From Fibrobacter succinogenes (GTDB taxonomy: Bacteria > Fibrobacterota > Fibrobacteria > Fibrobacterales > Fibrobacteraceae): 54,994 nucleotides of DNA. Both the position numbers and the translations under genes were made by a program. Under the pieces are notes generated by a model. It was not told the origin of the DNA. It saw nothing but the letters and a program-made list of their open reading frames with translations, and did no database searches. Below are positions 3,986 through 17,763 of the stretch, in pieces. Position 1 is the first letter of the stretch. Every line of letters begins with the position of its first letter. The stretch spans positions 1-54,994 of the forward strand of contig CACVQR010000015.1 of the NCBI GenBank assembly GCA_902756345.1, read 5' to 3'.

Positions 3986-4912
3986 ATGGTTAGCGTATCT
4001 CAGAAAATCAAAGTGGCCGTGTCGAACCTGCTGCGTTCGCAAATGGAATTGGACGTCGAAGACTACGGACTGAAAAGCCTGAGCGATTTGTGCAACAGGA
4101 TACTCGCCCGCTATGCGGAATTCACGCCGCCCGATCCGACCAAAATGGGCCCGGACGATACGCTGTACAAGAATGTGCCCTCGCTCCAGTTCTCGCTGAA
4201 CCAACACGGCGAAAGCTTTGCGAACTTCGCGAATTCTTTTGCCAAGAATGCAGGCACCAAAATTGCGGCCCTTTGCCGCTACTACTTCGAAAGCTACGTG
4301 AACATGCCGCGCGGCAAGCGCGAATGCTTTATCTTCCGCGACAGTTTAGACAAATTAACTAGCGCGGCAGAAGCCCACGCCAATGTAAACCTGACCTACC
4401 GCGACAAGCCCAAGCACGTGTCGCCCTGCTTTCTGGCATTTTCGCCCTCGCAGGTGCGCGCCTACGTCGTGGTGTGCGATGACTGTATTGATGCGCCCGC
4501 CGCGACCCGATTCCATTCCCTGCGCCTTTGCCACATCAAGGGTGTCGCGCTCGAAACCGGGAGCGAAGCGTTCCATTGCCAAAAATTCGAACTTTCGCGC
4601 CAGGCAGAAACATTCCGCGAGCACTTTGACCCGTTCCTATGCTACGGTCAACAAGTCAAAGTAAAACTCAGCGAAGAAGGCGCCAAGCGCTACAACAAGC
4701 TCACCACCAACCGCCCGAAAGTGATTGCCTTTGGCGGCTCAGAATGCGCCGAGGTGAACGACGCCGGCGTTTACATCTTTGAATGCTCCGAGAAACTCGC
4801 AAAGGTGTACTTCCCGCAATTCCTAAGCGATGCCGACATCCTGGAACCGAGAGATTTAAGACTCTGGTTCAAGGAAGAGTTCGAAAAAGCCGCGGGGGTG
4901 TATAAGAGATGA
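3986..4912 (+). CDS. WYL-domain-like protein, probable transcriptional regulator
   Basis: A 308-aa protein. Residues about 1-110 are helical without an obvious helix-turn-helix. Residues about 140-200 resemble a WYL domain: HVSPCFLAFSPSQVRAYVVV takes the place of the usual WYL strand, followed by FHSLRLCHIKGVAL, which matches the R-x-F-R-L-x-R-I region. The C-terminal part (VKVKLSEEGAKRYNKLTT) resembles the WYL C-terminal extension. WYL proteins bind ligands or nucleic acid and often control defence loci. It stands at the edge of the accessory island, so a regulatory role there is plausible. The Trp of WYL is replaced, which lowers certainty. Confidence 0.55.
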   Translation: MVSVSQKIKVAVSNLLRSQMELDVEDYGLKSLSDLCNRILARYAEFTPPDPTKMGPDDTLYKNVPSLQFSLNQHGESFANFANSFAKNAGTKIAALCRYYFESYVNMPRGKRECFIFRDSLDKLTSAAEAHANVNLTYRDKPKHVSPCFLAFSPSQVRAYVVVCDDCIDAPAATRFHSLRLCHIKGVALETGSEAFHCQKFELSRQAETFREHFDPFLCYGQQVKVKLSEEGAKRYNKLTTNRPKVIAFGGSECAEVNDAGVYIFECSEKLAKVYFPQFLSDADILEPRDLRLWFKEEFEKAAGVYKR

Positions 4913-4927
4913 GGGAACAAAAAAACT

Positions 4928-4953
4928 AGTGGCCCCGTCGTCACGGAGCCACT
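4928..4953. terminator. Bidirectional terminator-like hairpin after the WYL gene
   Basis: AGTGGC...GCCACT with inner CCGT/ACGG pairs around CGTC forms a strong stem 15 nt after the stop codon. The plus-strand tail TTTCCCT is weak. The minus-strand tail is a long T run (4917-4925), so it can also stop transcription arriving from the small minus-strand genes downstream. Confidence 0.55.
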
Positions 4954-5094
4954 TTCCCTGAGCCACAACACGGTAGTACGTACTAAAAATATTTAGAGAT
5001 TCTAGTTAAAAATGGATATAAGTCAAAAAAGTAAATCAAAAGCATCTTTTTTTGGTTTTGTACCTCCTTTGAAGTTTAGTTGCCAGTAAGCCGA

Positions 5095-5199
5095 CTAGTC
5101 ATCGTCCTTTTCGAACCAGTCTTCCATATCGTCTCTGTCGCAGCCGTCAAAAAAACCATCGGCATATTCACGGAGTTCAGCTTCTTCACGATCGTTCAT
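5095..5199 (-). CDS. Very small acidic protein (34 aa)
   Basis: A 34-aa ORF, extremely rich in Asp and Glu (starts MNDREEAELREY, ends DWFEKDDD). The start codon is set by AAAGGA seven bases upstream; an overlapping upstream ATG in another frame gives only six codons. It is preceded by a two-hairpin leader (5205-5297) that is a diverged copy of the leader of the 21-aa ORF at 5330-5395. The region 4913-5560 otherwise holds only these two units, the hairpin at 4928-4953 and short spacers. Its charge is unlike a membrane peptide. Function unknown. Confidence 0.5.
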   Translation of the reverse strand: MNDREEAELREYADGFFDGCDRDDMEDWFEKDDD

Positions 5200-5204
5200 C
5201 GTTC

Positions 5205-5297
5205 ATTCCTTTGAGCGGCAAACCGCCCTGTTAATCCACCCCGTTGTTGTTGGTGCGCTCGCTTTGGGGTGGTGAGGAAACAAGCGGCCAAATCGTA
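5205..5297 (-). promoter_or_regulatory. Structured leader, copy 1 (upstream of the 34-aa gene)
   Basis: On the minus strand, in order: TACGATTTG (5289-5297, a -7-like element with one extra base), stem P1 CCACCCC/GGGGTGG (5266-5272 with 5236-5242), the linker ATTAAC, stem P2 GGGCGG-TTTG-CCGCTC (5213-5228), then AAAGGA. The copy at 5403-5506 has the same order with compensatory base changes in both stems, which argues for an RNA structure. Confidence 0.5.
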
Positions 5298-5329
5298 TTG
5301 CAACGCAGAAGTCATCTCGTTGCCGTTAA

Positions 5330-5395
5330 TTAACTATCAAATTTGCTGCAGATCTTGAAAATGCAAGCAATGAAACTCAAGCAGGTCAAAAACAT
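5330..5395 (-). CDS. Very small hydrophobic peptide (21 aa)
   Basis: A 21-aa ORF starting MFLTCLSFIACIF, Cys- and Phe-rich and hydrophobic enough to insert in a membrane, ending in a polar tail. AAAGGAG lies 8 nt before the ATG. A perfect -7 element TACCTTTG and the second copy of the structured leader precede it. Size and hydrophobicity resemble type I toxin peptides or small membrane regulators. No antisense RNA could be identified. It may also be merely a leader peptide. Confidence 0.35.
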   Translation of the reverse strand: MFLTCLSFIACIFKICSKFDS

Positions 5396-5402
5396 TTATT
5401 GG

Positions 5403-5506
5403 ACTCCTTTGGGAGCGAGCGACATGATCGCTCAGTTAATCCGCCCACTGTTTATTAGGCCTCTCACTTCGGGGCGTGAGAAAGTAAGCGCCTTTATTCA
5501 AAGGTA
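5403..5506 (-). promoter_or_regulatory. Promoter and structured leader, copy 2 (upstream of the 21-aa ORF)
   Basis: On the minus strand TACCTTTG (5499-5506) is a perfect TAnnTTTG element. Then P1 CGCCC/GGGCG (5472-5476 with 5442-5446), linker ATTAACT, P2 GAGCGA-TCATG-TCGCTC (5417-5433), and CCCAAAGGAG. Relative to copy 1, P1 changes CACCC/GGGTG to CGCCC/GGGCG and P2 changes GGGCGG/CCGCTC to GAGCGA/TCGCTC, so pairing is conserved while sequence is not. An alternative stem CTCAC/GTGAG (5463-5480) is also possible. Confidence 0.5.
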
Positions 5507-5556
5507 GCTTAGTAAAGCGCAAAAAACACCCTCCCTTTCTAACTTTTTCTGAATGA

Positions 5557-5575
5557 AAAAATGCTAAGCATTTTT
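5557..5575. promoter_or_regulatory. Perfect palindrome upstream of the 735-aa gene
   Basis: AAAAATGCT-A-AGCATTTTT lies immediately upstream of a -7-like TATATTAT (5575-5582) and would sit between the -33 and -7 regions, an operator position. A similar half, CTTAGCATTTTT, recurs just after the gene's stop codon (7793-7804). Confidence 0.4.
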
Positions 5576-5587
5576 ATATTATCAAGT

Positions 5588-7795
5588 ATGGAAAAAGAAT
5601 ATACGCCTTATATCGGGAAGAATTTTGAAAAAAGCAAATACCGAATTCTCATTATTATTGATGAGATAAATGACTTTGCTGATTTCAAAAAAACAAAATA
5701 TGATAACTATTGCCACTATCTCATAGCGAAAAATGACGCCGTGAAAAAAATTTTAGCGCAATATGATTTAAAGAAAAATGACGTAGCCTGCTATAATTAT
5801 AGATACAACTGCAAATCAGAAATCAAGCTAGAGGAACTAAAAGGAAAAGAATTAACAGAATACAATAATGAACTTAGAAATCGCATCAATCAACTCAAAC
5901 CATGTAATATTATCATTCAGCGCGAGCAAATAACAAGGAATGTTACAAAAAGGAAAAAATATTTTGATTCTGGAAAGATAACATTTGAAAAATTTTTAGA
6001 AATCAAAGGAATTAAGCTTTTTGAATGCAGAAAAGATGGCAAGCAAGACTCTTCTCTTATAAAAGATCGATTTCTTGAATTAAAGTCTAGTTTAAACAAA
6101 ATTAATGTTTTTTTGGAAACATTAAATCCATGCATAAAAACTTTTGCAAAAACCAATAAGGAGAAAAAAAGGGAAGAAGAATCTTTTTTTATTTATAGCA
6201 AACAAAGTAAGAATTGCAAAAAATCAGTAATTTCCCCAAAGGACCTAAATAAGTTTTATAATCTTAGTCAAACAAATTATGCATCAGAAAAAGAATTTCT
6301 TTCTGACCACCAGTACGATCATAAATGGGAAGAACTTAATATAAAAGTTTGTGAAGAACTCGGGATTCCCTTCCCCAACAATGAAATAAGTCGTCAGTTA
6401 CAAGGCTGTATAAATTATTACAATATAAAAGACTGCATAAAAAGCGCTTTGCTAATAATAAATGAACTCGTTTCTGAAGATGAAGAGATTAAAACATCTG
6501 CCAATACGAAAACGAAAAAGGGAAATTATCTTATAATTTTCACTGATGAAAAACAGAAAACTTTAGACAAAATTAAAGCTGAATATAAAGAAAAAAATAA
6601 ACTAAGCGAGAATAACTTTTATTTTCACAGCTACATAGATAATTTTGATTTATTATATGTTTTAAAAGAAAAGAATTATCAAAATTTAACAGAACGGCCC
6701 CTATCGTGGTACAATGAAAGGCTCTTTAAGTTTATTATGGAAAATAAACCTAGTGCGATTGTTTTTTGCGGAGGGTTATTGACGAAAACTATTTTCAAAA
6801 ACAAAATTCCATCTATAAATAAAAAACTTAACGAATTCTTGATGGAGAACAATATTCTGTATTTTACGAAAGATCGCGTTACGAGAGAAAATCCTTCAAC
6901 TAAAAAGGATAGATTATTCCAAATAAAAAGTCTTATGGAAAATCTTCAAGACGATTTGAATAATCTAAACCCATGTAATGCAGCGGGTGAATTGGCGTTA
7001 AAAAACGAAAAATGGTATGGAATTCCAGAAAACCTTCTTAAAGAAAAAACGTACGATGAGTTATGCACTAAATATCATGTTTCTGATTCTGAATTAGAAA
7101 GATATCATCGGTATCGCAATGCCGATGATACACTACAAAAAGTTATAAGAAAAGTAAACGAAGTGATGGCGGATGATGAGGAATTGAAAAAAGTCAATCG
7201 TATGTTGCTTTTGCTTGTTGGTGCTTTTGTTCCGCTTCCTATGTTTTTTGAATTACTTGATTCCTTTAAAGATGAATCTGATTTTAACCGTATAAAAAAA
7301 ATAACAACTGATCGAAGTTCAATGATTATGTATAATGTTGAATTTTGGGAAAAATATAAAGATAAAAAAGAATATGAAAAGAAAAAAATTAGTTCGTATA
7401 ATAAAAGGCTCAATAATTTTTTTACTCGATTGAAAGAAGGACATTATGACAAAGATCTCCTTGAACTTATGAAAGAAAGAATTTTTGAGGAAAATCAAAT
7501 TAAAAAAATCAAAATATACCGAGATTTGTCATTTTTTTGTTGTAATGCTGATGAATACGAAGATATAAAAGAAAAAGAAGAACGCATAAAGGAAATGATT
7601 GATAAAAATCGGTCGGCTTTAAGAAAAGTAAAAAAAGATTCCGATGCGGCTCAACAAATAAAGGAGAAGATTGACGAATTACGTAGCCAAAAAGATAAAA
7701 TTAAAGAAGATATAGCCATTCAACGAGGCGACCGTCCAAAGGAAAAAGACCGAAATTATATATTGAATCACCTTTGGAAACCTGAAAATCCTTAG
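5588..7795 (+). CDS. AT-rich 735-aa protein with internal repeats, function unknown
   Basis: The start MEKEYTPYIGKNFEKSKYRI resembles the N-terminus of a uracil-DNA-glycosylase-superfamily group that usually continues with a Gly-Glu-Ser motif; here it reads IIDEINDF, so catalytic residues appear lost. At least two repeats are visible. LTEYNNELRNRINQLKPCN (about residue 90) parallels LSWYNERLFKFIMENKPSA (about residue 370), and both are followed some 70 residues later by a conserved L-N-P-C. A weaker third copy begins ISSYNKRLNNFF (about 605). The C-terminus is a charged coiled coil. Base composition is far more AT-rich than its neighbours, indicating transfer. ATG 5588 is preferred to 5561 because the latter lies inside the palindrome upstream of the promoter. 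Function unknown. Confidence 0.7.
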   Translation: MEKEYTPYIGKNFEKSKYRILIIIDEINDFADFKKTKYDNYCHYLIAKNDAVKKILAQYDLKKNDVACYNYRYNCKSEIKLEELKGKELTEYNNELRNRINQLKPCNIIIQREQITRNVTKRKKYFDSGKITFEKFLEIKGIKLFECRKDGKQDSSLIKDRFLELKSSLNKINVFLETLNPCIKTFAKTNKEKKREEESFFIYSKQSKNCKKSVISPKDLNKFYNLSQTNYASEKEFLSDHQYDHKWEELNIKVCEELGIPFPNNEISRQLQGCINYYNIKDCIKSALLIINELVSEDEEIKTSANTKTKKGNYLIIFTDEKQKTLDKIKAEYKEKNKLSENNFYFHSYIDNFDLLYVLKEKNYQNLTERPLSWYNERLFKFIMENKPSAIVFCGGLLTKTIFKNKIPSINKKLNEFLMENNILYFTKDRVTRENPSTKKDRLFQIKSLMENLQDDLNNLNPCNAAGELALKNEKWYGIPENLLKEKTYDELCTKYHVSDSELERYHRYRNADDTLQKVIRKVNEVMADDEELKKVNRMLLLLVGAFVPLPMFFELLDSFKDESDFNRIKKITTDRSSMIMYNVEFWEKYKDKKEYEKKKISSYNKRLNNFFTRLKEGHYDKDLLELMKERIFEENQIKKIKIYRDLSFFCCNADEYEDIKEKEERIKEMIDKNRSALRKVKKDSDAAQQIKEKIDELRSQKDKIKEDIAIQRGDRPKEKDRNYILNHLWKPENP

Positions 7796-7851
7796 CATTT
7801 TTCATACAAACTAAATAGCGTAAATCATACGATTTTCACTTGTTTAGTTGT

Positions 7852-7859
7852 TATATTTA
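7852..7859 (+). promoter_or_regulatory. -7 element of the 52-aa gene
   Basis: TATATTTA (one mismatch to TAnnTTTG). Transcription would start near 7864-7866, exactly where the first leader hairpin begins. Confidence 0.4.
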
Positions 7860-7863
7860 GAAC

Positions 7864-7924
7864 AGTTACCACAACTGAGATGTTTGATGGTAACTCCAAG
7901 AGGTACTTGGAAACAAACAAGGAG
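7864..7924 (+). promoter_or_regulatory. Structured leader of the 52-aa gene
   Basis: Hairpin 1 is GTTACCA (7864-7870) with TGGTAAC (7888-7894). Hairpin 2 is CCAAG-AGGTA-CTTGG (7896-7910). AAGGAG follows at 7919-7924. As in the leaders at 5205, 5403 and 8291, a TAAC lies directly before the RBS-proximal hairpin. Confidence 0.4.
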
Positions 7925-7930
7925 TTCCCT

Positions 7931-8089
7931 ATGTGGGACTATAAAAATGAAGGCTCTAATTATGATCGCGCTGTCGAAGGCGGCGATGAAACTTTCCACG
8001 ATTACATGATTGAACGCTGCAGGGACAGCAGCTTTGACTGGGATCGTTGGGACAAAGCTACAGGAGATGGCTATGGCAGACACAACTAA
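7931..8089 (+). CDS. Small acidic hypothetical protein (52 aa)
   Basis: A 52-aa soluble protein rich in Asp, Glu, Tyr and Trp (starts MWDYKNEGSNYDRAVEGGDE, later FDWDRWDKATGDG). The ATG at 7931 has AAGGAG six bases upstream. The longer in-frame start at 7880 falls inside the leader hairpin and lacks an RBS. It has its own promoter (7852-7859), two-hairpin leader and terminator (8135-8159), so it is a self-contained transcription unit between the 735-aa gene and the PIN gene. No family recognised. Confidence 0.55.
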   Translation: MWDYKNEGSNYDRAVEGGDETFHDYMIERCRDSSFDWDRWDKATGDGYGRHN

Positions 8090-8134
8090 ACGTTAACCCC
8101 CGAATCACCACAACACCAGCAAGTCCGCCGACTC

Positions 8135-8159
8135 AAGACAGCATTTTTTTGTCTTTTTT
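8135..8159 (+). terminator. Terminator of the 52-aa gene
   Basis: AAGACA (8135-8140) pairs with TGTCTT (8150-8155), followed by a T run to 8159. Confidence 0.6.
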
Positions 8160-8216
8160 AAGCCCCGGGCACTTTTTGACCTTAGTTATTTATTGGCTGT
8201 CATAAGGACTTGAATC

Positions 8217-8272
8217 GAGATACAGCAAAGCGGTACGGCGCCTAATCGCTTGCAAAGTATCTCACCTTTTTA
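8217..8272 (+). terminator. Large stem-loop with T tail, possible end of a small RNA
   Basis: GAGATAC (8217-8223) pairs with GTATCTC (8257-8263). An inner stem GCAA-(A)-GCG with CGC-TTGC encloses GTACGGCGCC. The run ACCTTTTTATTT follows. The preceding gene already has a terminator at 8135-8159, so this second one implies a separate short transcript from about 8165 on. No gene lies in 8090-8367 apart from these structures and the leader at 8291. Confidence 0.45.
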
Positions 8273-8290
8273 TTTCAGATTACATCATTC

Positions 8291-8360
8291 AACCTGTTGC
8301 GAAGCACCGCTTCGCAGGTTGTTAAACTTTTAACCTGCCGCCTTGATGGCGGCAAAGGAG
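8291..8360 (+). promoter_or_regulatory. Structured leader of the PIN/zinc-ribbon gene
   Basis: Hairpin 1 is AACCT...GCGAAGC-ACC-GCTTCGC-AGGTT (8291-8320). The linker ends in TTTTAACCT. Hairpin 2 is GCCGCC-TTGAT-GGCGGC (8337-8353), immediately followed by AAAGGAG (8354-8360). The second AACCTG (8332-8337) could also pair with CAGGTT (8315-8320), giving two exclusive folds next to the ribosome binding site. Confidence 0.5.
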
Positions 8361-8367
8361 TATGCGA

Positions 8368-9120
8368 ATGAACATTCGTATAAGCCCCAACGACTACATG
8401 CTTAAAACGTTTTTGACCCATAAACTTTACGCAGACACGAACATCTTCCTATTGAATTCTTGGGAAAAATGCAAAGAAATAATTTTTCCACGCCTTGCTC
8501 TGTGCAACCGCAAGCTTATCGTACTTGGTTCAGTAATGGCCGAATTGCGCAAGCTGGCAAGCGCAACAGATAAGCTGGCCGTCGCATGCAGGGCCCAGAA
8601 AGCGATTCACGACATCAACAGCCTCGTCAATCAGAAATTGATTAAAATCGAAGGGGACGACGCATCGTTTGCAGATCATGACTTTTTGTCAACCTTCACG
8701 ACGAGACGCCTAAGTGAAAATATCGTCCTGCTCTCTGCTGATAAAGGCTTGCTCGAAGATGTAAACCGACTCAACTATAGCGAATCGGTTCATTCGTATC
8801 GTCGCATACTTGTGTGGCATCAAGAACCAAATGGTTTCATCAATACACGCTGGGCAAAGCGACTCAATAGGAACCAAGTCTTTTTCAAGGAATCAACCGA
8901 AGAACGCTATTGCGCAACATGCGGCAAACCTTTCTACTTGTCCCCAACGCATAAGCAATTCTTCCTCTCCAAAGGGCTTGCAATCCCGACACACTGCCCA
9001 GACTGTCGAGCATTGATTAAGAAGACTGCAGAACAGGAAAACACCCCTAACCTGGCAAGCTCAATCCGCAATTTCGTGGAAGCGATCAAAAAACAGCTTG
9101 CCACCAGCAACAACATTTAA
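8368..9120 (+). CDS. PIN-domain nuclease with C-terminal zinc ribbon
   Basis: A 250-aa protein. Residues about 20-150 fit a PIN fold: YADTNIFL supplies Asp23, VMAEL supplies Glu59 and LLSADKGLLED supplies Asp125, the acidic metal-binding set of these RNases. Residues 182-213 form a zinc ribbon CATC...CPDC. PIN proteins cleave RNA, often as toxins or in stress responses. No partner antitoxin is seen; the ribbon may provide RNA or protein binding. ATG 8368 is chosen because AAAGGAG is 7 nt upstream, while 8362 is too close. It is 17 nt before a FISUMP gene, clearly one operon, and sits behind a structured leader. Confidence 0.75.
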   Translation: MNIRISPNDYMLKTFLTHKLYADTNIFLLNSWEKCKEIIFPRLALCNRKLIVLGSVMAELRKLASATDKLAVACRAQKAIHDINSLVNQKLIKIEGDDASFADHDFLSTFTTRRLSENIVLLSADKGLLEDVNRLNYSESVHSYRRILVWHQEPNGFINTRWAKRLNRNQVFFKESTEERYCATCGKPFYLSPTHKQFFLSKGLAIPTHCPDCRALIKKTAEQENTPNLASSIRNFVEAIKKQLATSNNI

Positions 9121-9137: not shown

Positions 9138-9710
9138 ATGGCATTAAAATTCATTGACGACAGAGACAACGAAGTATACAACCTCGTCCGTATCGGAAAT
9201 CAACTCTGGTTTGCAGAAAACCTCCGTTACCACGTGGAAGATCGCTGCTTTCTCTACAATCAGAAATACTCCTCCTTCAAGAAGAGCGGCTACCTTTACA
9301 GCAAGGACGCTCTTGATGAACTTTGCCCTCCCGGATGGCATATTCCCTCGGCAGCTGAATTTACCAAGCTTTTCCAGAGTTTTGAAAAATCGGCTCATGA
9401 GATGAACTGGGTCGAAATGTTCGCGGGCAAGCACCTCGACCGGAATCTCTCCTTGCAATTTGGCGGATTCGGATCCGAAGCGCAGATGGATTTCTGGGAA
9501 GAAGGTCAGGGAGCCTATTTCTGGACATCGACCGAAGGCAAAAACAAGGACAAGCAATACTGCGTCATTGACTCCAAAGGCATCAGCTTTAGGTACCCGG
9601 CGCCAATGCGCGACTTGTTTAGCGTAAGGTTGGTCTGCAACGAAGTATTGACCACTAGGTCGAACTTTGCCTACCTTAAGCGAGCTACATCAAACGAAGG
9701 ACCGTTCTAA
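9138..9710 (+). CDS. FISUMP-domain protein paired with the PIN gene
   Basis: A 190-aa protein made almost entirely of the Fibrobacter succinogenes major paralogous domain: LVRIGNQLWFAENLRYH at the start, then YSKDALDELCPPGWHIPS, FGGFGSEAQ, YFWTSTEGK and a final SVRLVCNE. It has no signal peptide and lacks the N-terminal helical module of the array at 10344-18723. The domain is predicted to share the FGE/C-type-lectin fold and usually binds ligands or partners. AAAGGA precedes the ATG. It lies 17 nt after the PIN gene and before a strong terminator (9721-9752). Probably the recognition partner of the nuclease, an inference from operon structure only. Confidence 0.85.
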   Translation: MALKFIDDRDNEVYNLVRIGNQLWFAENLRYHVEDRCFLYNQKYSSFKKSGYLYSKDALDELCPPGWHIPSAAEFTKLFQSFEKSAHEMNWVEMFAGKHLDRNLSLQFGGFGSEAQMDFWEEGQGAYFWTSTEGKNKDKQYCVIDSKGISFRYPAPMRDLFSVRLVCNEVLTTRSNFAYLKRATSNEGPF

Positions 9711-9720
9711 AAAATAAAGG

Positions 9721-9752
9721 CCGCCGGCATAAAAGCCGGCGGTTCTTTTTTT
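9721..9752 (+). terminator. Terminator of the PIN-FISUMP operon
   Basis: CCGCCGGC (9721-9728) pairs with GCCGGCGG (9735-9742), followed by TTCTTTTTTT. On the minus strand the facing A-rich tail (RC of 9711-9719) can also stop transcription coming out of the LRAT gene. Confidence 0.85.
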
Positions 9753-9803
9753 ATGGAAGGCACAATTCTTGAATCTGCATGAAAGAGGATGCATTAGGAT
9801 AGA

Positions 9804-10322
9804 CTACGGCATAATTGAGTCTATCCATGAATTGACTTGCCGACTTTCAGCGACATTCGTTTTGCACCATATCGCAAAGTTTTCGCAATTGTTTACTAAA
9901 AAATTATATTCGTCTCCGTCAATTCCTTTTTTTCCTATCAGCATTCTCGCCCTTTCAACAGTTTGTTGAGGCGATTGGAGTTGATATTCGTCTTTATGCA
10001 CTATATAACGAAGAAAACTGCCGCACTCATATTTTTTGGGGAAATCCATAATATAGACCGTATTGCCATCCGCAAAGTCCTCTATTGTTGTTTCATGGAT
10101 ATCTGCTTCAGAGCCAATATCACGTGGAGCGAAGTGAATGACTTTTCCCGATCCAATATAAATTCCAAAATGCTTATATGCGGAAATATAACGCCTGCAA
10201 AAAATTACATCTCCATAGCTAGGAGTTCCTGAGCATTCGTGAATATACTCATAAAGTATTTTATTCTTTAAAACTCGAGGTGCGGGAAGTGAATGAATAA
10301 ATCGTTTAAGAAGAAAGTTCAT
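9804..10322 (-). CDS. LRAT-fold (NlpC/P60 superfamily) protein
   Basis: A 172-aa protein with the LRAT signature: HFGIYIGSGKVIHFAP supplies His51 and His63, and NNCENFAIWC supplies Cys146, in the circularly permuted papain order His...Cys. The family includes lecithin:retinol acyltransferase, HRASLS phospholipases/acyltransferases and many bacterial proteins acting on lipids or amides. No signal peptide or membrane helix is seen, so it is probably cytoplasmic. AGGAAA precedes the ATG. It is the last gene of the 12-gene GTPase/FISUMP operon, 21 nt after a FISUMP gene. A lipid-acting effector role is an inference. Confidence 0.75.
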   Translation of the reverse strand: MNFLLKRFIHSLPAPRVLKNKILYEYIHECSGTPSYGDVIFCRRYISAYKHFGIYIGSGKVIHFAPRDIGSEADIHETTIEDFADGNTVYIMDFPKKYECGSFLRYIVHKDEYQLQSPQQTVERARMLIGKKGIDGDEYNFLVNNCENFAIWCKTNVAESRQVNSWIDSIMP

Positions 10323-10343
10323 TTTTTGATTTCCTATAAATAA

Positions 10344-11237
10344 TCAAACATCTTTTACATAACGAATGCAATTTACAGAATCTGCTTCTGTTCGCATAAA
10401 TTGAATTTCATCAGATTCGTCATCTAAAGAAAAACATAAGCGGGGTAATTTGGATTCTCCAGAATCACCTTTCAACCAAAAATTAATAGCTTGACTTCCA
10501 TCATCCATTTTAAGGGGAATGGCATTAAAACCAAATAAATCTAATCCATTTTTCCACTTACTGGTCGATTTTAAAGCGGCTCCAGTTTTATTAGTGACCC
10601 CCTTTATTTCACAGATAAGGTCTTGAAAATCCGCTATAGTCGGTAAACGCCAACCTTGAGGAGCGCAGCGCACCGCTTTTTCATATGAAGCGAGTTCAAC
10701 GAGTTTGCCTCCACATGCGGATTTGGATTTTGGAATACCGAAAATACCAAATTTTATTTCCCACTGGAGTGCCCCTGGACCAACCCACTCATTACCCATA
10801 ACAAAAAAATTCTCAGCCATCCAAATAGTGTTTCCGATTCGACAGGTCTTGTATGTTTTATCCTTATAGATGAATTCGCCTAATTCTTTCTGACTTTCAA
10901 ATTGGTTAATTTGAGGAAATGCAAATATCTCAGCAAATGCCGATATGACATCATAGGCGGAATCCGGCAGCATTTGAGCATTAATTAAATCTTGGTAGCA
11001 ATTCTTTAAGATTTGTTCTTGTTGATTTTCACTAGAAGCGAAATCTGATGCGGCCCTTTTTGCATTGTATATTTTTTGCGGAATTCCCTTGATATTTGCA
11101 AACGCAAGAATATCATTTGCAATAGACTTTCTTTGCCCTAAAGCTTTACGTAATCGCAATGTATTTTCATTTGAAAAGATTTCTTCGTCGAAATCCGCTA
11201 TAAGATTTTGTAAAACCTTTTTGAGTTGCTGTATCAA
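10344..11237 (-). CDS. FISUMP paralog h (helical module + FISUMP)
   Basis: 297 aa. Residues 1-110 are a diverged copy of the shared helical module (IFSNENTLRLRKALGQ, ANIKGIPQKIY). Residues about 125-297 are FISUMP (YKTCRIGNTIWMAENF, QGWRLPTIADF, LDLFGFNAIP, NCIRYVKDV). No ATG is available in frame: the coding frame opens at a TTG (11237) preceded by GAGGAAA, or possibly an ATT further upstream right after a stop codon. This suggests the N-terminus was trimmed. No zinc ribbon. It is the eighth and last FISUMP gene of the operon and the most divergent. Confidence 0.8.
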   Translation of the reverse strand: MIQQLKKVLQNLIADFDEEIFSNENTLRLRKALGQRKSIANDILAFANIKGIPQKIYNAKRAASDFASSENQQEQILKNCYQDLINAQMLPDSAYDVISAFAEIFAFPQINQFESQKELGEFIYKDKTYKTCRIGNTIWMAENFFVMGNEWVGPGALQWEIKFGIFGIPKSKSACGGKLVELASYEKAVRCAPQGWRLPTIADFQDLICEIKGVTNKTGAALKSTSKWKNGLDLFGFNAIPLKMDDGSQAINFWLKGDSGESKLPRLCFSLDDESDEIQFMRTEADSVNCIRYVKDV

Positions 11238-11284
11238 TTCTAATATTTCCTCTACATCAATGGCTTAGTTTTTTCAACATTTGA

Positions 11285-12316
11285 TTATTCCTCTTCAGCA
11301 TCTTTTACGTAGCGAATGCAGGCGTAAGAGTCGTATTTCATATCTTCAAATATGTAATTATCGGTGCTAAGAATGGAAAAAGCTCTGTATGCCGTTTTCC
11401 CGCTTTCTGAAAGCCAAAATCTTGTCATTAAAGAACCATCAGATTGACGTTGCGTTGGGAATGCACTAAATCCAAAGTCGTCCGTTCCTTTTTTTCCGGA
11501 GCCATGCCATTGTGATTCTGACTTTAACGATACAGCAACATCAAGATTTTGGGACTTAATAAAATCCATCATGTCATGGATATCTTCTTCTGTTGGAAGC
11601 CGCCAACCTTGTGGAATGGTAATGTACGATGATTGAGTGGGATTAGAATCATAACTGTGTCGGTACAATTTACCGTATTTGGGGTTGATACATTCCTCTG
11701 CATCAACTCCATAAATTGGAAAATCAAGATTTTTGGCCAGCCAAATTTGATTGCCAATTCTGCAAGTTGGAAAATCAAATTCTGTCTGTGGTTCATCCTT
11801 GCCGCTCCAAGAAGATCGACTAATGTCAACCTTTATTTTTACAGTATCAAGCTCCTTTTTTTTGAAAGAGTTGTCTTCGAATTCAGCAAAAATGCCCATC
11901 ACATGCGTAAGCCAAGAAATAGTTTCTTTCGCAAATTCCTGTGGCAAACCGAAAGAAGTCATTTCGTTAAGACAGAAATCCGCCATTTGCTGCTGCTCAT
12001 TTTGCGGTTGATCTAGTACTGAATAAAGCTTTTGCGGAACGTTCTTGATGTTGGCTACGAGCAATTTGTCGCGAGCCACATCAAAGGGCGCCTCCAGCTT
12101 AACCAGAGATTTTGTAAAACGCGAACTATTCTCTTCGCTGAAGATTTCAAGCCCACCAAAATCATCAGCGAATTTTTTCAGCTCGGCTTCAATTGTTCCT
12201 GCTTCAATAGGCGGCAAAATCTTTGGAAAAAATGTTCCACAATATGGACATGCGACAAATTCCTTGAGTATGCTTTCGTCGAAGAGGAGTTCTTTATTGC
12301 ATTTTTGGCATTTCAT
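11285..12316 (-). CDS. FISUMP paralog g (zinc ribbon + helical module + FISUMP)
   Basis: 343 aa. Residues 1-30 form a zinc ribbon CQKC...CPYC. Residues about 40-140 are the helical module (FGGLEIFSEENSSRFTKSLV, NVPQKLYSV). After a linker, residues about 180-343 are FISUMP (FPTCRIGNQIWLAKNL, GKLYRHSYDS, QGWRLPTEEDIHDMM, DDFGFSAFP, ACIRYVKDA). AAAGGAG precedes the ATG. The gap to gene f is 17 nt. Cytoplasmic by sequence. The ribbon and helical module are typical of adaptor parts, the FISUMP part of a ligand-facing head. Confidence 0.88.
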   Translation of the reverse strand: MKCQKCNKELLFDESILKEFVACPYCGTFFPKILPPIEAGTIEAELKKFADDFGGLEIFSEENSSRFTKSLVKLEAPFDVARDKLLVANIKNVPQKLYSVLDQPQNEQQQMADFCLNEMTSFGLPQEFAKETISWLTHVMGIFAEFEDNSFKKKELDTVKIKVDISRSSWSGKDEPQTEFDFPTCRIGNQIWLAKNLDFPIYGVDAEECINPKYGKLYRHSYDSNPTQSSYITIPQGWRLPTEEDIHDMMDFIKSQNLDVAVSLKSESQWHGSGKKGTDDFGFSAFPTQRQSDGSLMTRFWLSESGKTAYRAFSILSTDNYIFEDMKYDSYACIRYVKDAEEE

Positions 12317-12333
12317 TGGAAATCTCCTTTTAA

Positions 12334-13398
12334 TTATTCAGCATCCTTCACAAAACGAACGCAGCCAAATTTATTCCGATAATTCACTATATCTTCATAT
12401 TGGAAATTATCACTATCCGCATCAAGAGTTACTAAAGAATAATTGTGCGATTCAGAATATCCCGCACCTTTTATTCTTACATCAATACCCCTATCCGCCC
12501 AAAATGAAACTTTTGTGACGCCATCGTCACCCCGAGCAGCAGGGTATGCCTCAAAACCAAACAAATCTATCCCTTTGCCGCCACGGCCATGCCATAGCTT
12601 TGGACTTTTCAGGGCTTCTCCAACAGTCAACCCCAAAGATATAATGTATTCTTCCAAATTCTTAAAATCCTCAATTGTTGGAAGCCTCCATCCTTCATTA
12701 GGAAAGTGAAGTTCACTAAAGAACCACGGTCCTTTGAATATTGACCCTGACAATGGATTTATAGCATCATGTTGTTCATAGTGATACGGATCAAACGTAT
12801 TGCAATCCAGGAATATGTTTTTTGAAGCCCATATTAGATCGTTAATAAAGCATGTGTTTATTGGGGCGCATTCAAACAATTTTTCTCTACCAAAGAGATT
12901 TGGCGCTTTTATGATTACGGGTTCCCCCATCCTCTTTTCCACAATAGGTTTTTGTTCCAACGTAACTGAAAAATTCATTAGTTGAGCAAGCCAAGAAATA
13001 ATTTCGTCAATAAGCTTCTTTTGCAAACCAAAAGCAAGTAATTCTTCTACGCAGGAACCAACGACCTGCTGCTTTTCTTTTTGCGGCAACTCTATCACGG
13101 AATACATTTTTTGCGGAACCTTTTTGATATTAGCAACAAAAAGCTTATTTCGTTCTTCCGCAAATTTGGAATCAATCGCTGTTAAAGCTCTACTAAACCG
13201 TGAATAATTTTCTTCGCTAAGAATCTCTAATCCACCGAATTCATTGACAATACGTTTCAATTCGGTATCTATAGAAACATCAGAATCATGAGATTCTCCT
13301 GCTTGAGAAAGCGGCTTTCCGCAAAACGGACATTTTATGAATTTTTCAAGAACTTCTTCAGGAAAGTTCAGTTCTTGATTGCATTGAGGGCAGTTCAT
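12334..13398 (-). CDS. FISUMP paralog f (zinc ribbon + helical module + FISUMP)
   Basis: 354 aa, same order as gene g. Zinc ribbon CPQC...CPFC (residues 3-25). Helical module with FGGLEILSEENYSRFSRAL and KVPQKMYSV. FISUMP with a 10-residue-longer loop before EGWRLPTIEDFKNLEEYI, then IDLFGFEAYPAARG and CVRFVKDA. The ribbon and module are closest to gene d, as expected if the pair e-f arose by duplication of the pair c-d. GGAGATCATT precedes the ATG; 18 nt separate it from gene e. Confidence 0.88.
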   Translation of the reverse strand: MNCPQCNQELNFPEEVLEKFIKCPFCGKPLSQAGESHDSDVSIDTELKRIVNEFGGLEILSEENYSRFSRALTAIDSKFAEERNKLFVANIKKVPQKMYSVIELPQKEKQQVVGSCVEELLAFGLQKKLIDEIISWLAQLMNFSVTLEQKPIVEKRMGEPVIIKAPNLFGREKLFECAPINTCFINDLIWASKNIFLDCNTFDPYHYEQHDAINPLSGSIFKGPWFFSELHFPNEGWRLPTIEDFKNLEEYIISLGLTVGEALKSPKLWHGRGGKGIDLFGFEAYPAARGDDGVTKVSFWADRGIDVRIKGAGYSESHNYSLVTLDADSDNFQYEDIVNYRNKFGCVRFVKDAE

Positions 13399-13416
13399 AA
13401 TGATCTCCTTGAAATT

Positions 13417-14520
13417 TTATTCAGCATCCTTCACAAAACGGACGCAGGCAAAGCCAAAAGGTAAATCTGGGTCTAACCCACTTGGACCTGAAATTTTTCC
13501 ATTGTCCAAATCAATCGTATTTTTCGCAGAATCAATGGTTACTACGTAAGCCATATCACCCTCGATATATGGATCATCAACATAATCCGTATTGGTCCAA
13601 AATTGTACACAAGGAAAGTGTGATACTATAGATAAATCTATATTTTCATTTCCGATTTTTATTTGAGCATTCTCTTTCTTCCAAATCGAATTCCGCGGAT
13701 ACATTTTTTCTTTTTTGGGGAGATTATCATCCCATTTTTTCAATGGGTGTGCCGCAAAGCCAAAAAGATCTAGTCCAGGATCGGCGTCGCCGCTCCAGTC
13801 CCCGTTTGACTTGAGCGCAGTCCCAGCATCAAATCCTAAAGATTTAACGTATGAAACTAAGTTTAGCCAGTCTTCTATAATTGGCAGACGCCAACCTTCG
13901 TAATCCTCATCTCTTTTGATACGAACTGCCATTTTTCTTCTTGAAACGTTTCCTTTAAAGCAGTCGTCATAATAAAAATTTTGAGCTTCTCCATGTGTAT
14001 AAAGTCGCCCATACTTATTGCCAGGAACAGCGATTCCTATAGTATCGCTATTCCACCGGAAATGCGAAGCCCGGAGATTTTCGGCCATCCAAATTTGATT
14101 ACCAATTTTACAGGTTTTATACGAGTCACCCGCTATTTCTGCTTCGCCCAAGACCTTCTCTATTTCAGGTTCTTTTGTTGTAGAACCTTTAAGTTTTAGT
14201 ACATTTATAAAGCCCGTGGCAACATCTTCTACAATTTGCGAAGTTAATCCCAAAGAAGATAATTCCTTGAGACTATTGTCTATCATTTTTTGCTGCGCTT
14301 TGGTCGGAAAATCTATGACAGAATATAGTTTTTGTGGAATACTTTCTATACATGCAACCTGCATCCACTTTTTTTCTTGCGAGAAAGAATCCGCTAATGA
14401 TTTTACGGCTTTGTTGAGACGAGATTCATTTTCTTCATCGAAGATTTCAATTCCGCCAAAATCCTGAACCAGTTTTTTCAAAAAACTATCAAAAGCGCTT
14501 GTATTAGGCTTTTTTTTCAT
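13417..14520 (-). CDS. FISUMP paralog e (helical module + FISUMP)
   Basis: 367 aa from the ATG at 14520, chosen because AAGGAG stands 7 nt upstream; a start at 14541 would overlap gene d and has no RBS. There is no zinc ribbon. The helical module (FGGIEIFDEENESRLNKAV, ACIESIPQKLYSVI) is nearly identical to that of gene c, whereas the FISUMP half (YKTCKIGNQIWMAENLRASH, LDLFGFAAHPLKKW, GFACVRFVKDA) shows different insertions around the variable region. It therefore points to recent duplication followed by head divergence. Confidence 0.88.
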   Translation of the reverse strand: MKKKPNTSAFDSFLKKLVQDFGGIEIFDEENESRLNKAVKSLADSFSQEKKWMQVACIESIPQKLYSVIDFPTKAQQKMIDNSLKELSSLGLTSQIVEDVATGFINVLKLKGSTTKEPEIEKVLGEAEIAGDSYKTCKIGNQIWMAENLRASHFRWNSDTIGIAVPGNKYGRLYTHGEAQNFYYDDCFKGNVSRRKMAVRIKRDEDYEGWRLPIIEDWLNLVSYVKSLGFDAGTALKSNGDWSGDADPGLDLFGFAAHPLKKWDDNLPKKEKMYPRNSIWKKENAQIKIGNENIDLSIVSHFPCVQFWTNTDYVDDPYIEGDMAYVVTIDSAKNTIDLDNGKISGPSGLDPDLPFGFACVRFVKDAE

Positions 14521-14537
14521 AATTTTTCTCCTTGATA

Positions 14538-15596
14538 TCAATCAACATCTTTTACATAGCGGACACAAGCACGGTATCCAGGATCTGCTTTAAACGATAG
14601 ATTTAAATTATTGCTATTTGCAGATAATAAGACACAATAGTTAGGATTATCAAATTCTTTGTTACCCGCCTCTGTTGAAGTCCAAAACCAAGCTTGAGCT
14701 TCACCGGTTTTAGAATCTCTTATTGTCGGATAGGCACAAAACCCAAATAGGTCTAATCCTGAATCCGCATTGCCATGCCATTGATTGGTTGATTTTAAAG
14801 CTGTTCCGGCATCATATTCCGAATTTTTTATATGAGCAACCAAGTCTTCAAAATCTTCAAGAGTCGGCAATCGCCAACCTTCAGGAGTATTTGCAATTGC
14901 TTCAGATAGAGTATATAATCTTCCATAATTTTTATTGGAACAACATTCGCCTATATTATTAAGTCTACCAAGGCGATATGGATCTTTCCCAGGATTACTG
15001 TCGAGATTCTCTGCAAACCATTCTTTATTACTTATGATGCAAGTTTTGTATTGATAATGATATTCGTTTGTCTCATAATGATGGGTTCGGTCAAAACCTT
15101 TTACTTCATAATCGAACATCCCCATTTTCTTCTCAATTATTTTACACTTTTTTTCTAGAGATATTTTCAAGGTATTTGCTAACCAGCTTACAACTTCATC
15201 GGCAATGTTTTCTTGCAAACCAAATGAAAGCAAGTTCTGTCGGCATTCATCTGCAGTTTTCTGTTGTTCTATTTTCGGTGCATTTATTGTGTTATACAGC
15301 TTTTGCGGAATATTTCGGACATTTGCTAAAATCAAGCGATCCCTTTCGTCAGCCAGATCGTTATCTATGGTTATCAATGCTCTATGCAGTCGGGAGCCAT
15401 TTTCTTCAGAAAATATTTCTAATCCTCCAAACTCTTCTGCAATATTCTTAAGTATTGTTTCTATCGGAGTTAAAGGATTCTCCTCATTCTCTGTTTGTTC
15501 CTCTTGTAGGAAGCCTCCGCAAAACGGGCAACTGGAGAAGGTTTTCAAAATATCTTCAGGGAAATTCAGTTCCTTATTACATTTAGGGCAGTTCAT
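14538..15596 (-). CDS. FISUMP paralog d (zinc ribbon + helical module + FISUMP)
   Basis: 352 aa from the ATG at 15596, which has AAGGAG upstream; a longer reading to 15623 would overlap gene c. Zinc ribbon CPKC...CPFC, helical module (FGGLEIFSEENGSRLHRAL, NVRNIPQKLYNTI), then FISUMP (YKTCIISNKEWFAENLDS, GRLYTLSEAI, EGWRLPTLEDFEDLV, AWFWTSTEAG, ACVRYVKDV). The FISUMP half resembles genes a and b, while the N-terminal half resembles gene f, giving a mosaic. Mid-operon, 17 nt from its neighbours. Confidence 0.88.
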   Translation of the reverse strand: MNCPKCNKELNFPEDILKTFSSCPFCGGFLQEEQTENEENPLTPIETILKNIAEEFGGLEIFSEENGSRLHRALITIDNDLADERDRLILANVRNIPQKLYNTINAPKIEQQKTADECRQNLLSFGLQENIADEVVSWLANTLKISLEKKCKIIEKKMGMFDYEVKGFDRTHHYETNEYHYQYKTCIISNKEWFAENLDSNPGKDPYRLGRLNNIGECCSNKNYGRLYTLSEAIANTPEGWRLPTLEDFEDLVAHIKNSEYDAGTALKSTNQWHGNADSGLDLFGFCAYPTIRDSKTGEAQAWFWTSTEAGNKEFDNPNYCVLLSANSNNLNLSFKADPGYRACVRYVKDVD

Positions 15597-15612
15597 AACT
15601 ATCTCCTTGAAA

Positions 15613-16773
15613 TCAATCTGCATCTTTTACATACCGGACACAAGCAAAACCAAAAGGAGGTGTACTATATGTTCCTCCTGTTGATGAAAGTTTTCCTTTA
15701 TCCAAATCAAGCGTGTTTTTTGAGGGATCTAATGTTGCTACATAAGCCATGTCATCTGCATAATCTACCCGTGGATTATCAACATATTTTGTGCTAGTCC
15801 AAAATTGGACACACGGAAACACAGGCGTACTCATTTCTACAAAAGTGTTATGTTGATTAATAATGCCATTTTCTTCATCAAGTTTTTTCTGTTTCTCTGA
15901 TTTTATTCTATTATCTTCCTTTTGCCATTCTTTATAAGCATAATCGATAGAATCTTTTAAATTTTCCCACACATTAAAACCATTCCATATTGTTATATCG
16001 TCTAGTGATTTTAGTTCCTGCTTTTGCGGAAGATTGTCGTCCCAATATTTAATTGGATGCGCAGCAAAGCCAAAAAGATCAAGTCCGGGGTCAGCATCAC
16101 CACTCCAATCGCCCTTCGATTTGAGTGCAGTTCCCACATCAAACCCTAGTGATTCAATGTAAGAAACCATCTTTAACCAATCCTCCATTGTAGGTAAACG
16201 CCAACTATCATTCAAAGACATCTGAGCATCGCGATAAGTATAAAGACGACCATATTTATTTCCGGGAACGGCAAGACCTATGCTTTCGTACGCACCAAAA
16301 TACCCTGGAGGAAGTCTTGCCAATCTAAAATTTTCCGCCATCCAAATTTGATTACCAATTTTACAGGTTTTATAGGTATCTCCCACTATGTCAGCTTCGC
16401 CTAAAACTTTCTCTATTTCGGGTTCTTTTTTAGTAGAGCCTTTAAGTTTCAATACACTTATAAAGCCCGTGACAACATCTTCCACAACTTGTGACGTCAA
16501 TCCCAAGGAAGATAATTCCTTGAGACAATTATCAATCATTCGTTGTTGTGCTTCTGGCGGAAATTCTATGACAGAATATAATTTTTGAGGGATACTCTCT
16601 ATGCACGCAACCTGCATCCATTTTTTTTCTTGCGAGAAAGAATCTGCCAATGATTTCACAGCCTTATTAAGACGGGATTCATTTTCCTCATCAAAGATTT
16701 CTAATCCACCAAAATCCTGAACGAGAGCGTTCAAAAAGATTTCAAAAGTATTTGATTCGTTCTCTATTGTCAT
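15613..16773 (-). CDS. FISUMP paralog c (helical module + FISUMP)
   Basis: 386 aa, no zinc ribbon. The helical module (FGGLEIFDEENESRLNKAV, ACIESIPQKLYSVI) is almost the same as in gene e. FISUMP begins YKTCKIGNQIWMAENF and ends FACVRYVKDAD. An insertion of about 60 charged, helical residues (IDYAYKEWQKEDNRIKSEKQ) sits inside the domain between the GFAAHP and VQFWTSTKY segments, a loop position in this fold. AAGGAG precedes the ATG. 14 nt separate it from gene b. Confidence 0.88.
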   Translation of the reverse strand: MTIENESNTFEIFLNALVQDFGGLEIFDEENESRLNKAVKSLADSFSQEKKWMQVACIESIPQKLYSVIEFPPEAQQRMIDNCLKELSSLGLTSQVVEDVVTGFISVLKLKGSTKKEPEIEKVLGEADIVGDTYKTCKIGNQIWMAENFRLARLPPGYFGAYESIGLAVPGNKYGRLYTYRDAQMSLNDSWRLPTMEDWLKMVSYIESLGFDVGTALKSKGDWSGDADPGLDLFGFAAHPIKYWDDNLPQKQELKSLDDITIWNGFNVWENLKDSIDYAYKEWQKEDNRIKSEKQKKLDEENGIINQHNTFVEMSTPVFPCVQFWTSTKYVDNPRVDYADDMAYVATLDPSKNTLDLDKGKLSSTGGTYSTPPFGFACVRYVKDAD

Positions 16774-16787
16774 AAAAGCTCCTTCTG

Positions 16788-17738
16788 CTATTTAATATCC
16801 CTTACGTAACGGACACAGGCATAATAGCCATTTCCAGCTCGGCCTTGTAAATCAACATTGTTACTATTTTCATTTATGCTTATACAAAAGTGAGGATATG
16901 TTCCATCACCTGTTTCTGAAGAAGTCCAAAACCAAGCCTGACCTTCTCCCGTTTTAGAATCATTTATAGTAGGATAAGCACAAAAACCAAACAGATCAGC
17001 CCCCGATCCGGCCGACCCCAACCAATGTTCTGTAGATTTCAAAGCCATTCCCGTATCTAATTCAAAAGACTGTATATATGCAATCAATTCCTGATAATCT
17101 TCTATTGTTGGGAGCCGCCAACCCTGGGGAGCATTCTTTACCGCCTCATGCCAATCATAGAGTCGTCCAAATTCCACCTTAGTACTTTTATTTCCAATAG
17201 AATTGGTATAATCGTCATGGTTTTGATTTCGTCCATAATCTTGATGAAAATTTTCTGCAAACCACTCTAAATGTCCTATAATACAAGTTTTATACTGATA
17301 CTCTTTTTGAATCCATTCTTTTTCCCAACTATAGTCTGATTTCTTATACCTTATTACCACACTTTCTTCTTTTAACTGTTTTTCAATTACAGTTTTTTTT
17401 CTTACGACTGCATTAATACCCAAAATAGACATATAACTCTGAACTATGTTTTCACATACATCTTCATCTAAAGTCAACGATATCAAAGCATCCCGACACG
17501 TCTCTACCATTACCTGCTTTTCACTTTGCGTAGAATCCATTACCGCATACAATTTTTGCGGGATTCGCTTCATATTAGCAATCAGAAGCCAATCTTTCTC
17601 TGGTTCAAAAGATTCATCTAAAGCCATCAAGGCTTTATTTAGCCGAGAATGATTTTCTTCACAGAAGATTTCAGCACCGCCAAAATCATCAACAAGGTCT
17701 TTTAAAATTTTATCAAAAGAATTTGATTCCATCGACAT
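16788..17738 (-). CDS. FISUMP paralog b (helical module + FISUMP)
   Basis: 316 aa, no zinc ribbon. Module: FGGAEIFCEENHSRLNKALM, ANMKRIPQKLYAV. FISUMP: YKTCIIGHLEWFAENFHQ, FGRLYDWHEAV, QGWRLPTIEDYQELI, AWFWTSSETG, YACVRYVRDI. No clear Shine-Dalgarno precedes the ATG; a second ATG follows two codons later. Closely related to gene a along the whole length, so a and b form the older duplicated pair at the head of the array. Confidence 0.87.
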   Translation of the reverse strand: MSMESNSFDKILKDLVDDFGGAEIFCEENHSRLNKALMALDESFEPEKDWLLIANMKRIPQKLYAVMDSTQSEKQVMVETCRDALISLTLDEDVCENIVQSYMSILGINAVVRKKTVIEKQLKEESVVIRYKKSDYSWEKEWIQKEYQYKTCIIGHLEWFAENFHQDYGRNQNHDDYTNSIGNKSTKVEFGRLYDWHEAVKNAPQGWRLPTIEDYQELIAYIQSFELDTGMALKSTEHWLGSAGSGADLFGFCAYPTINDSKTGEGQAWFWTSSETGDGTYPHFCISINENSNNVDLQGRAGNGYYACVRYVRDIK

Positions 17739-17763
17739 AGAAATTTCTATTTCATGTTACCTA

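Follow-up and report, generated by a model that had tools for sequence, protein, structure and literature searches.

The leaders u1 and u2, which precede two short reading frames on a Fibrobacter succinogenes contig, represent an RNA family that is new but narrow and of a kind already known, the pseudoknot leader, as judged from their predicted fold. The element is real, and the u1 copy is conserved and inherited together with the gene for an acidic microprotein of 34 amino acids (34 aa). Two other leaders nearby, u3 and u4, are separate and have only a general plan in common with u1/u2; of these, u4 is a real leader in its own right. The functions of the leaders are inferred throughout. The window, i.e. 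the whole stretch of DNA that was analysed, is a complete contig of 54,994 bases (genome G000). Positions 4800-9000 were read by eye, and the four leaders were folded and aligned.

Relationships among the four leaders

A first-pass annotation of this DNA had assigned the following four leaders to a single family:

5207..5289, minus strand: u1 leader, consisting of a predicted H-type pseudoknot, a GAUUAAC linker, hairpin 2 and a Shine-Dalgarno (SD) sequence; homologous to u2 and to copies in genomes G048 and G085
5404..5492, minus strand: u2 leader, second copy of the predicted pseudoknot, from homology and a pseudoknot search; hairpin 2 at 5417-5433 and SD at 5404-5410
7865..7924, plus strand: u3 leader, with hairpins at 7865-7894 and 7895-7911 and an SD at 7919-7924; not homologous to u1/u2
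8290..8382, plus strand: u4 leader of a PIN-like gene, with hairpins at 8290-8321, 8337-8353 and 8361-8382 and an SD at 8354-8360

Local alignments of the leaders were compared with alignments of shuffled sequences. The alignment of u1 (5205-5297, minus strand) with u2 (5403-5506, minus strand) had a z-score of 7.9, and none of 500 shuffles was as good. The remaining five leader pairs had z-scores of -0.9 to 1.2, and were equalled by 80 to 442 of 500 shuffles. Separate models were built for the two kinds of conserved leader. The strong matches of model R1 (u1/u2) in the window were u1 and u2 only, while model R3 (u4) matched u4 only. These pairwise shuffles and separate models rule out a single four-member family. 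Hence, u1 and u2 are indeed related, whereas u3 and u4 are related in sequence to none of the other leaders. A conserved structured leader does exist at u1/u2, where two further species have orthologs, and a separate one at u4, again with orthologs in two species, but neither extends over a family of four genes.

The compensatory changes that had been reported between u1 and u2 are present in both stems: an A-U pair is replaced by G-C in stem 1, and a G-C pair by A-U in hairpin 2. The homology had been thought to start at a promoter element. However, the 60 nt on the 5' side of u1 and u2 are dissimilar (485 of 500 shuffles aligned as well), which implies that the homology starts at the RNA domain rather than at the promoter. 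Furthermore, the TAAC that had been read as the end of a linker in u3 is part of hairpin 1 of this leader, in the 3' arm (7888-7894).

Predicted fold of the u1/u2 element

The pseudoknot search placed the best H-type pseudoknot at the same aligned columns in u1, u2 and the copies of G048 and G085. For u1, the predicted structure has the following parts:

5256..5286, minus strand: helix A, arms 5277-5286 and 5256-5265; columns 4-13 with 25-34 of alignment A4
5236..5272, minus strand: helix B, arms 5266-5272 and 5236-5242; columns 18-24 with 48-54, also found by MFE folding
5243-5255, minus strand: A-rich loop of the pseudoknot
5213..5228, minus strand: hairpin 2, 6 bp with a UUUG loop, directly 5' of the SD, from folding
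5207..5212, minus strand: Shine-Dalgarno sequence AAAGGA, read from the sequence

Helix B is the stem previously described as hairpin 1. This stem is present in both u1 and u2, but a second helix that crosses it, helix A, had been missed. In u1, helix A contains one mismatch among its ten column pairs. Across the four copies, helix A measures 8-11 bp, helix B 5-9 bp, loop L1 1-6 nt and loop L2 0-2 nt, and the third loop, L3, is A-rich and 11-16 nt long in each of them. The predicted structure thus has the two crossing helices, the short L1 and L2 and the longer L3 of an H-type pseudoknot, at conserved positions. An equally good pseudoknot occurred in 0 (u1), 2 (u2), 0 (G048) and 0 (G085) of 300 shuffles each; the sequences that lend this support are also those from which the structure was derived. 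Of the helix cells in the alignment, 89.7% were paired, compared with 38-52% when the helices were slid.

Changes of helix pairs in the four-sequence alignment comprised two double-sided changes, one per helix, and four single-sided changes. The covariation score was reached by 230 of 500 shuffles; the alignment holds only four related sequences, so a score no higher than the control may be expected. The predicted fold is backed by position and energy, and not yet by covariation.

Nested folding of the whole leaders was unremarkable, with z-scores of -0.19 for u1, -0.89 for G048 and +1.13 for G085. In u1 it yields helix B and hairpin 2 and misses helix A. The pseudoknot of u2 is weaker, as its two equally good shuffles indicate, and the nested fold of this leader reaches -17.7. 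Formation of a pseudoknot carries a penalty of ~9-10 kcal/mol. According to these folding models, the nested fold of u2 may beat its pseudoknot once this penalty is paid. Hairpin 2 folds in u1, u2, G048 and G085 alike, with energies of -5.6 to -9.7 kcal/mol.

Two switch-like pairings were considered and rejected. All four copies could pair their 5' segment to hairpin 2 in place of helix A, but 85-196 of 500 shuffles equalled this. Sequestration of the SD by a pyrimidine tract, calculated for u1 (-4.5 kcal/mol), u2 (-2.5) and G048 (-3.0), is unsupported.

Distribution of the u1/u2 element

Evidence for relatives that is independent of the models came from a blind DNA search with u2 and a protein search with the 34-aa product of u1. 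Among 61 family genomes, the best foreign match to u2 was found in G048 (E = 2.1e-4), where an SD and then an acidic ORF of 33 aa, the ortholog of the u1 ORF, come after it. The next foreign match, in G010 (E = 0.017), covered 31 bases of sequence that looks protein-coding. The protein search identified the 34-aa protein in three of 111 family genomes, i.e. G000, G085 (88% identical) and G048 (76% identical), while 21 other genomes had weak matches only (E = 0.014 to 0.1), all within frames of at least 267 aa. The leader is also present in G085, with a z-score of 25 against u1 and 11.5 against u2. In total, the u1 leader and its acidic ORF occur in three Fibrobacter species, across which the fold and the loop sequence of u1 are kept at ~75-83% mean column identity. 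G048 and G085 have single leader copies, the window two.

R1 models the 60-nt domain and was derived from the u1, u2, G048 and G085 copies. Strong R1 copies were found in three of the 111 family genomes and in the same three of 167 phylum genomes (G000, G048 and G085). By construction the model scores 79-81 bits for its four members, just as R2 and R3 match their own members. The next R1 matches anywhere scored at most 23 bits, and R1 found no third u1/u2 copy in the own genome. These surveys used Infernal's stricter filters, by which weak copies may be lost. There were 17 such weak R1 matches, to which the phylum survey added one in G147; the seven of the 17 that were inspected look like chance, mostly in protein-coding sequence. 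The five weak R2 matches, all inspected, showed no resemblance. A DNA pattern search of genome contigs returned the G085 contig only, and a pattern search of viral contigs plus further searches found nothing in viral, phage and plasmid collections.

At gathering score, Rfam release 15 recognised only tRNAs in the window, with no match at u1 or u2. When E values up to 5 were allowed for positions 4900-8450, four weak, chance-like matches appeared, none of them at u1 or u2. We found no description of the element in the titles and abstract openings of the Fibrobacter literature on riboswitches or noncoding RNA, RNA motifs, WYL, pseudoknots and small RNAs.

The microprotein gene and its surroundings

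Four genes or reading frames adjoin the element in the window:

5095..5199, minus strand: ORF of the 34-aa acidic microprotein behind u1, with homologs in G085 and G048
5330..5395, minus strand: putative 21-codon hydrophobic ORF behind u2
3986..4912, plus strand: WYL-domain gene, convergent with the 34-aa ORF; PADLOC WYL model, E = 1e-15
5561..7795, plus strand: gene of a 744-aa protein, divergent from u1/u2

Between the window and G085, codons of the 34-aa ORF differ synonymously in 8 cases and nonsynonymously in 4, and dN/dS is 0.05, 0.14 and 0.20 for the three genome pairs. The ORF is very likely a real protein. The first-pass annotation had held that the leader and not the protein is the conserved part; at dN/dS values of 0.05-0.2, this no longer holds for the u1 protein, which is kept together with its leader. 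In G048 and G085, no counterpart of the 21-codon ORF was seen next to the one leader copy that each of them has. The second copy, u2, has probably degenerated or been repurposed.

In the window, G048 and G085, the leader unit is flanked by the convergent WYL gene on one side and by the gene of a large, divergent protein on the other. The WYL gene is present in 16 of the 111 genomes, and occupies the same place in G048 and G085. Other genomes that were examined have different genes behind it, which marks this as a variable spot. The large divergent proteins of G085 and G048 are clear relatives, with 53% identity. The 744-aa protein of the window is weakly similar to that of G048 and has a relative in G067 (26% over 152 aa). 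Searches of Pfam, NCBIfam, PADLOC (window protein) and PDB sequences (G048 protein) gave nothing convincing for these large proteins. A likeness of the N-terminus to uracil-DNA glycosylases was a guess from reading, without support in searches, and a structure prediction (454 aa of the G085 protein, with the window protein as alignment) was meaningless at a pLDDT of 29.8.

The divergent intergenic region next to a WYL-domain gene would also be a natural place for a DNA element, in which the inverted repeats would be operator sites in a divergent promoter region, e.g. for the WYL protein. We regard this as unlikely. G-U pairs arise inside the helices at alignment columns 8, 9, 10 and 23; such changes leave RNA pairing intact but disrupt DNA palindromes, and thus fit RNA pairing better. 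Moreover, the element runs right up to the SD of a single gene, and the upstream DNA is not conserved between u1 and u2.

Leaders u3 and u4 and the PIN-like gene

The features associated with u3 and u4 are:

7931..8089, plus strand: 52-aa acidic ORF behind u3, with homologs in G077 and G076
8121-8266, plus strand: conserved structured RNA of ~146 nt, 3' of the 52-aa gene and 5' of the PIN-like gene
8368..9120, plus strand: gene of a PIN-like/zinc-ribbon protein, starting with MNIR

The G077 homolog of the 52-aa gene has two leader hairpins whose sequence is unlike that of u3, and no counterpart of u3 was evident in G076. The three-hairpin leader u4 is conserved in G048 and G085, with double-sided changes in two of its 27 predicted pairs, and model R3 finds it in only three of the 111 genomes (the own genome, G048 and G085). 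MNIR was taken as the start of the PIN-like protein because G048 lacks the ATG that lies two codons upstream. The 9-bp hairpin at 8361-8382 (plus strand) spans this start codon at 8368; G048 and G085 retain the hairpin, with two pairs changed on one side only. The PIN-like gene itself is present in four of the 111 genomes, among them all three with the 34-aa unit. The fourth, G077, has a more distant protein (44%), with a similar first stem of different sequence on its 5' side.

The 146-nt RNA has strong copies in four of the 111 family genomes (G000, G048, G085 and G077), each just 5' of the PIN-like gene. Changes on both sides affect five of its 21 predicted pairs, and it has no Rfam match. 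In G085 (locus L146, 2664-3896, minus strand), a 410-aa protein is encoded directly 5' of this RNA and the PIN-like gene; by reading, its N-terminal motif MPYIGDNY...RILVVAG resembles that of the divergent large proteins. Downstream of the PIN-like gene, at 9138-18723, the window contains a series of paralogs that carry GNQxWxAENL-type motifs, which we take to be the Fibrobacter major paralogous domain, FISUMP. In G077 (locus L147, 1491-6368), the 52-aa gene, the conserved RNA, the PIN-like gene and a FISUMP-type gene adjoin phage head genes, encoding a head maturation protease and a major head protein. This arrangement suggests a cassette that is carried by a phage.

The company of the PIN-like gene raises the question of whether the pseudoknot is a free-standing, ToxI-like RNA partner of the PIN-like protein or of the divergent large protein, with the 34-aa ORF as a passenger or second partner. 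An H-type pseudoknot in two copies in the window, the PIN-like gene in all three genomes with the 34-aa unit, and related large proteins divergent from the pseudoknot in G048 and G085 would agree with such a partnership. Yet the three genomes may be no more than relatives or have an island in common, no toxin gene lies directly behind the repeat, and G048 and G085 have single copies in which, as at u1, an SD and a conserved ORF come directly after the element. We therefore think it improbable. Even less credible, in our estimation, is a wider scheme in which the pseudoknot leader, the acidic microproteins, the divergent protein and the cassette of 52-aa gene, 146-nt RNA and PIN-like gene form one mobile, RNA-controlled module. 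Here, the nuclease or the large protein would recognise the RNAs and the microproteins would restrain it, as in a new defence or toxin-antitoxin island.

Common plan of the leaders and its chance background

Sequence reading and folding bore out the plan described earlier for u1-u4, in which an upstream stem is followed by hairpin 2, AAGGA and a start codon. In all four leaders, hairpin 2 has 6-7 bp and a short loop and lies close 5' of AAGGA and the start codon. A two-hairpin plan at least as strong was found in 4 (u1), 10 (u2), 16 (u3) and 1 (u4) of 400 dinucleotide shuffles each, and hence the plan is stronger than typical in all four leaders. We also estimated its background in a small sample of 82 leaders, obtained with a simple ORF caller from 400 kb of the own genome. 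A loose version of the plan occurred in 14 of the 82 leaders, compared with 9-10 expected from shuffles, and a stricter version (total stem length of at least 12) in five, compared with 3.6 expected. These numbers imply that two hairpins before an SD are not rare in general, and a genome-wide enrichment was rejected, as this sample showed no clear excess over shuffles.

The frequency of the plan in the sampled leaders, the closeness of hairpin 2 to the SD in each of the four units and the lack of a conserved SD sequestration are what ordinary 5'-UTR structure would give. In that case, the pseudoknot and hairpins of all four leaders would shield the 5' end against nucleases and keep the ribosome site open, without any regulation. 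This explanation is possible but, to our mind, rather doubtful, since the plan is not enriched over shuffles (5 vs 3.6 at the stricter threshold) and the fold and loop sequence of u1 are kept at ~75-83% mean column identity across species.

Comparison with known systems and proposed mechanism

SAM-II and preQ1 riboswitches are small H-type pseudoknots in 5' leaders. In contrast, u1/u2 have no Rfam match, their SD lies outside the fold, and no metabolic gene is attached to them. Type III toxin-antitoxin RNAs (ToxI, CptI) are pseudoknot RNAs as well, but their tandem short repeats before an endoribonuclease toxin gene are lacking here; u1/u2 have no toxin ORF directly behind, and are followed instead by an SD and a microprotein ORF, the 34-aa acidic ORF in the case of u1. 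The STAXI motif (RF01728) resembles the element in that a pseudoknot is present in more than one copy (PMC2864571). However, u1/u2 do not match RF01728, whose only weak match lies at 8254-8354 on the strand opposite u4. Moreover, G048 and G085 have single copies, and no ssb or topoisomerase neighbours were seen at the u1/u2 element.

By analogy, the closest working counterpart of the u1 element is the translational operator of T4/RB69 gene 32, which likewise places a pseudoknot ahead of the ribosome site in a single-gene leader (PMC535899). In gene 32, the RNA after the pseudoknot is less structured and contains UUAAA repeats, and the binding partner is the gene's own product. In u1, a hairpin comes after the pseudoknot, and the gene encodes an acidic protein of 34 aa. 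A less structured UUAAA region was not found, and hairpin 2 is present in all four copies.

On balance, we lean towards u1/u2 being an unlisted structured RNA, with u1 acting in cis on the microprotein mRNA via binding at its pseudoknot. The leader would be transcribed together with the gene. Its pseudoknot would form a rigid site ~25 nt ahead of the ribosome site, which a protein would probably recognise, while the insulating hairpin 2, which ends at or a few nt before AAAGGA, would keep the SD exposed. Binding at the pseudoknot would then set the translation or the stability of the microprotein mRNA. Because the two switch-like pairings are unsupported, a fixed structure that is read by a protein, or that acts as a stabiliser, is favoured over a ligand switch. 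The gene behind u1 suggests neither a ligand nor a binding protein. A role of the leaders in translational control, as proposed in the first-pass annotation, is plausible.

These four leaders also illustrate that a common drawing, i.e. two hairpins and an SD, can pass off unrelated leaders as one family. Our searches of the literature found no paper centred on leader RNAs of this type in Fibrobacterota. If the predicted fold is right, u1 represents a previously unlisted pseudoknot leader RNA of this phylum that is dedicated to a microprotein gene. It would offer a compact case, open to testing, in which a tiny gene has a conserved control region about as long as the gene itself.
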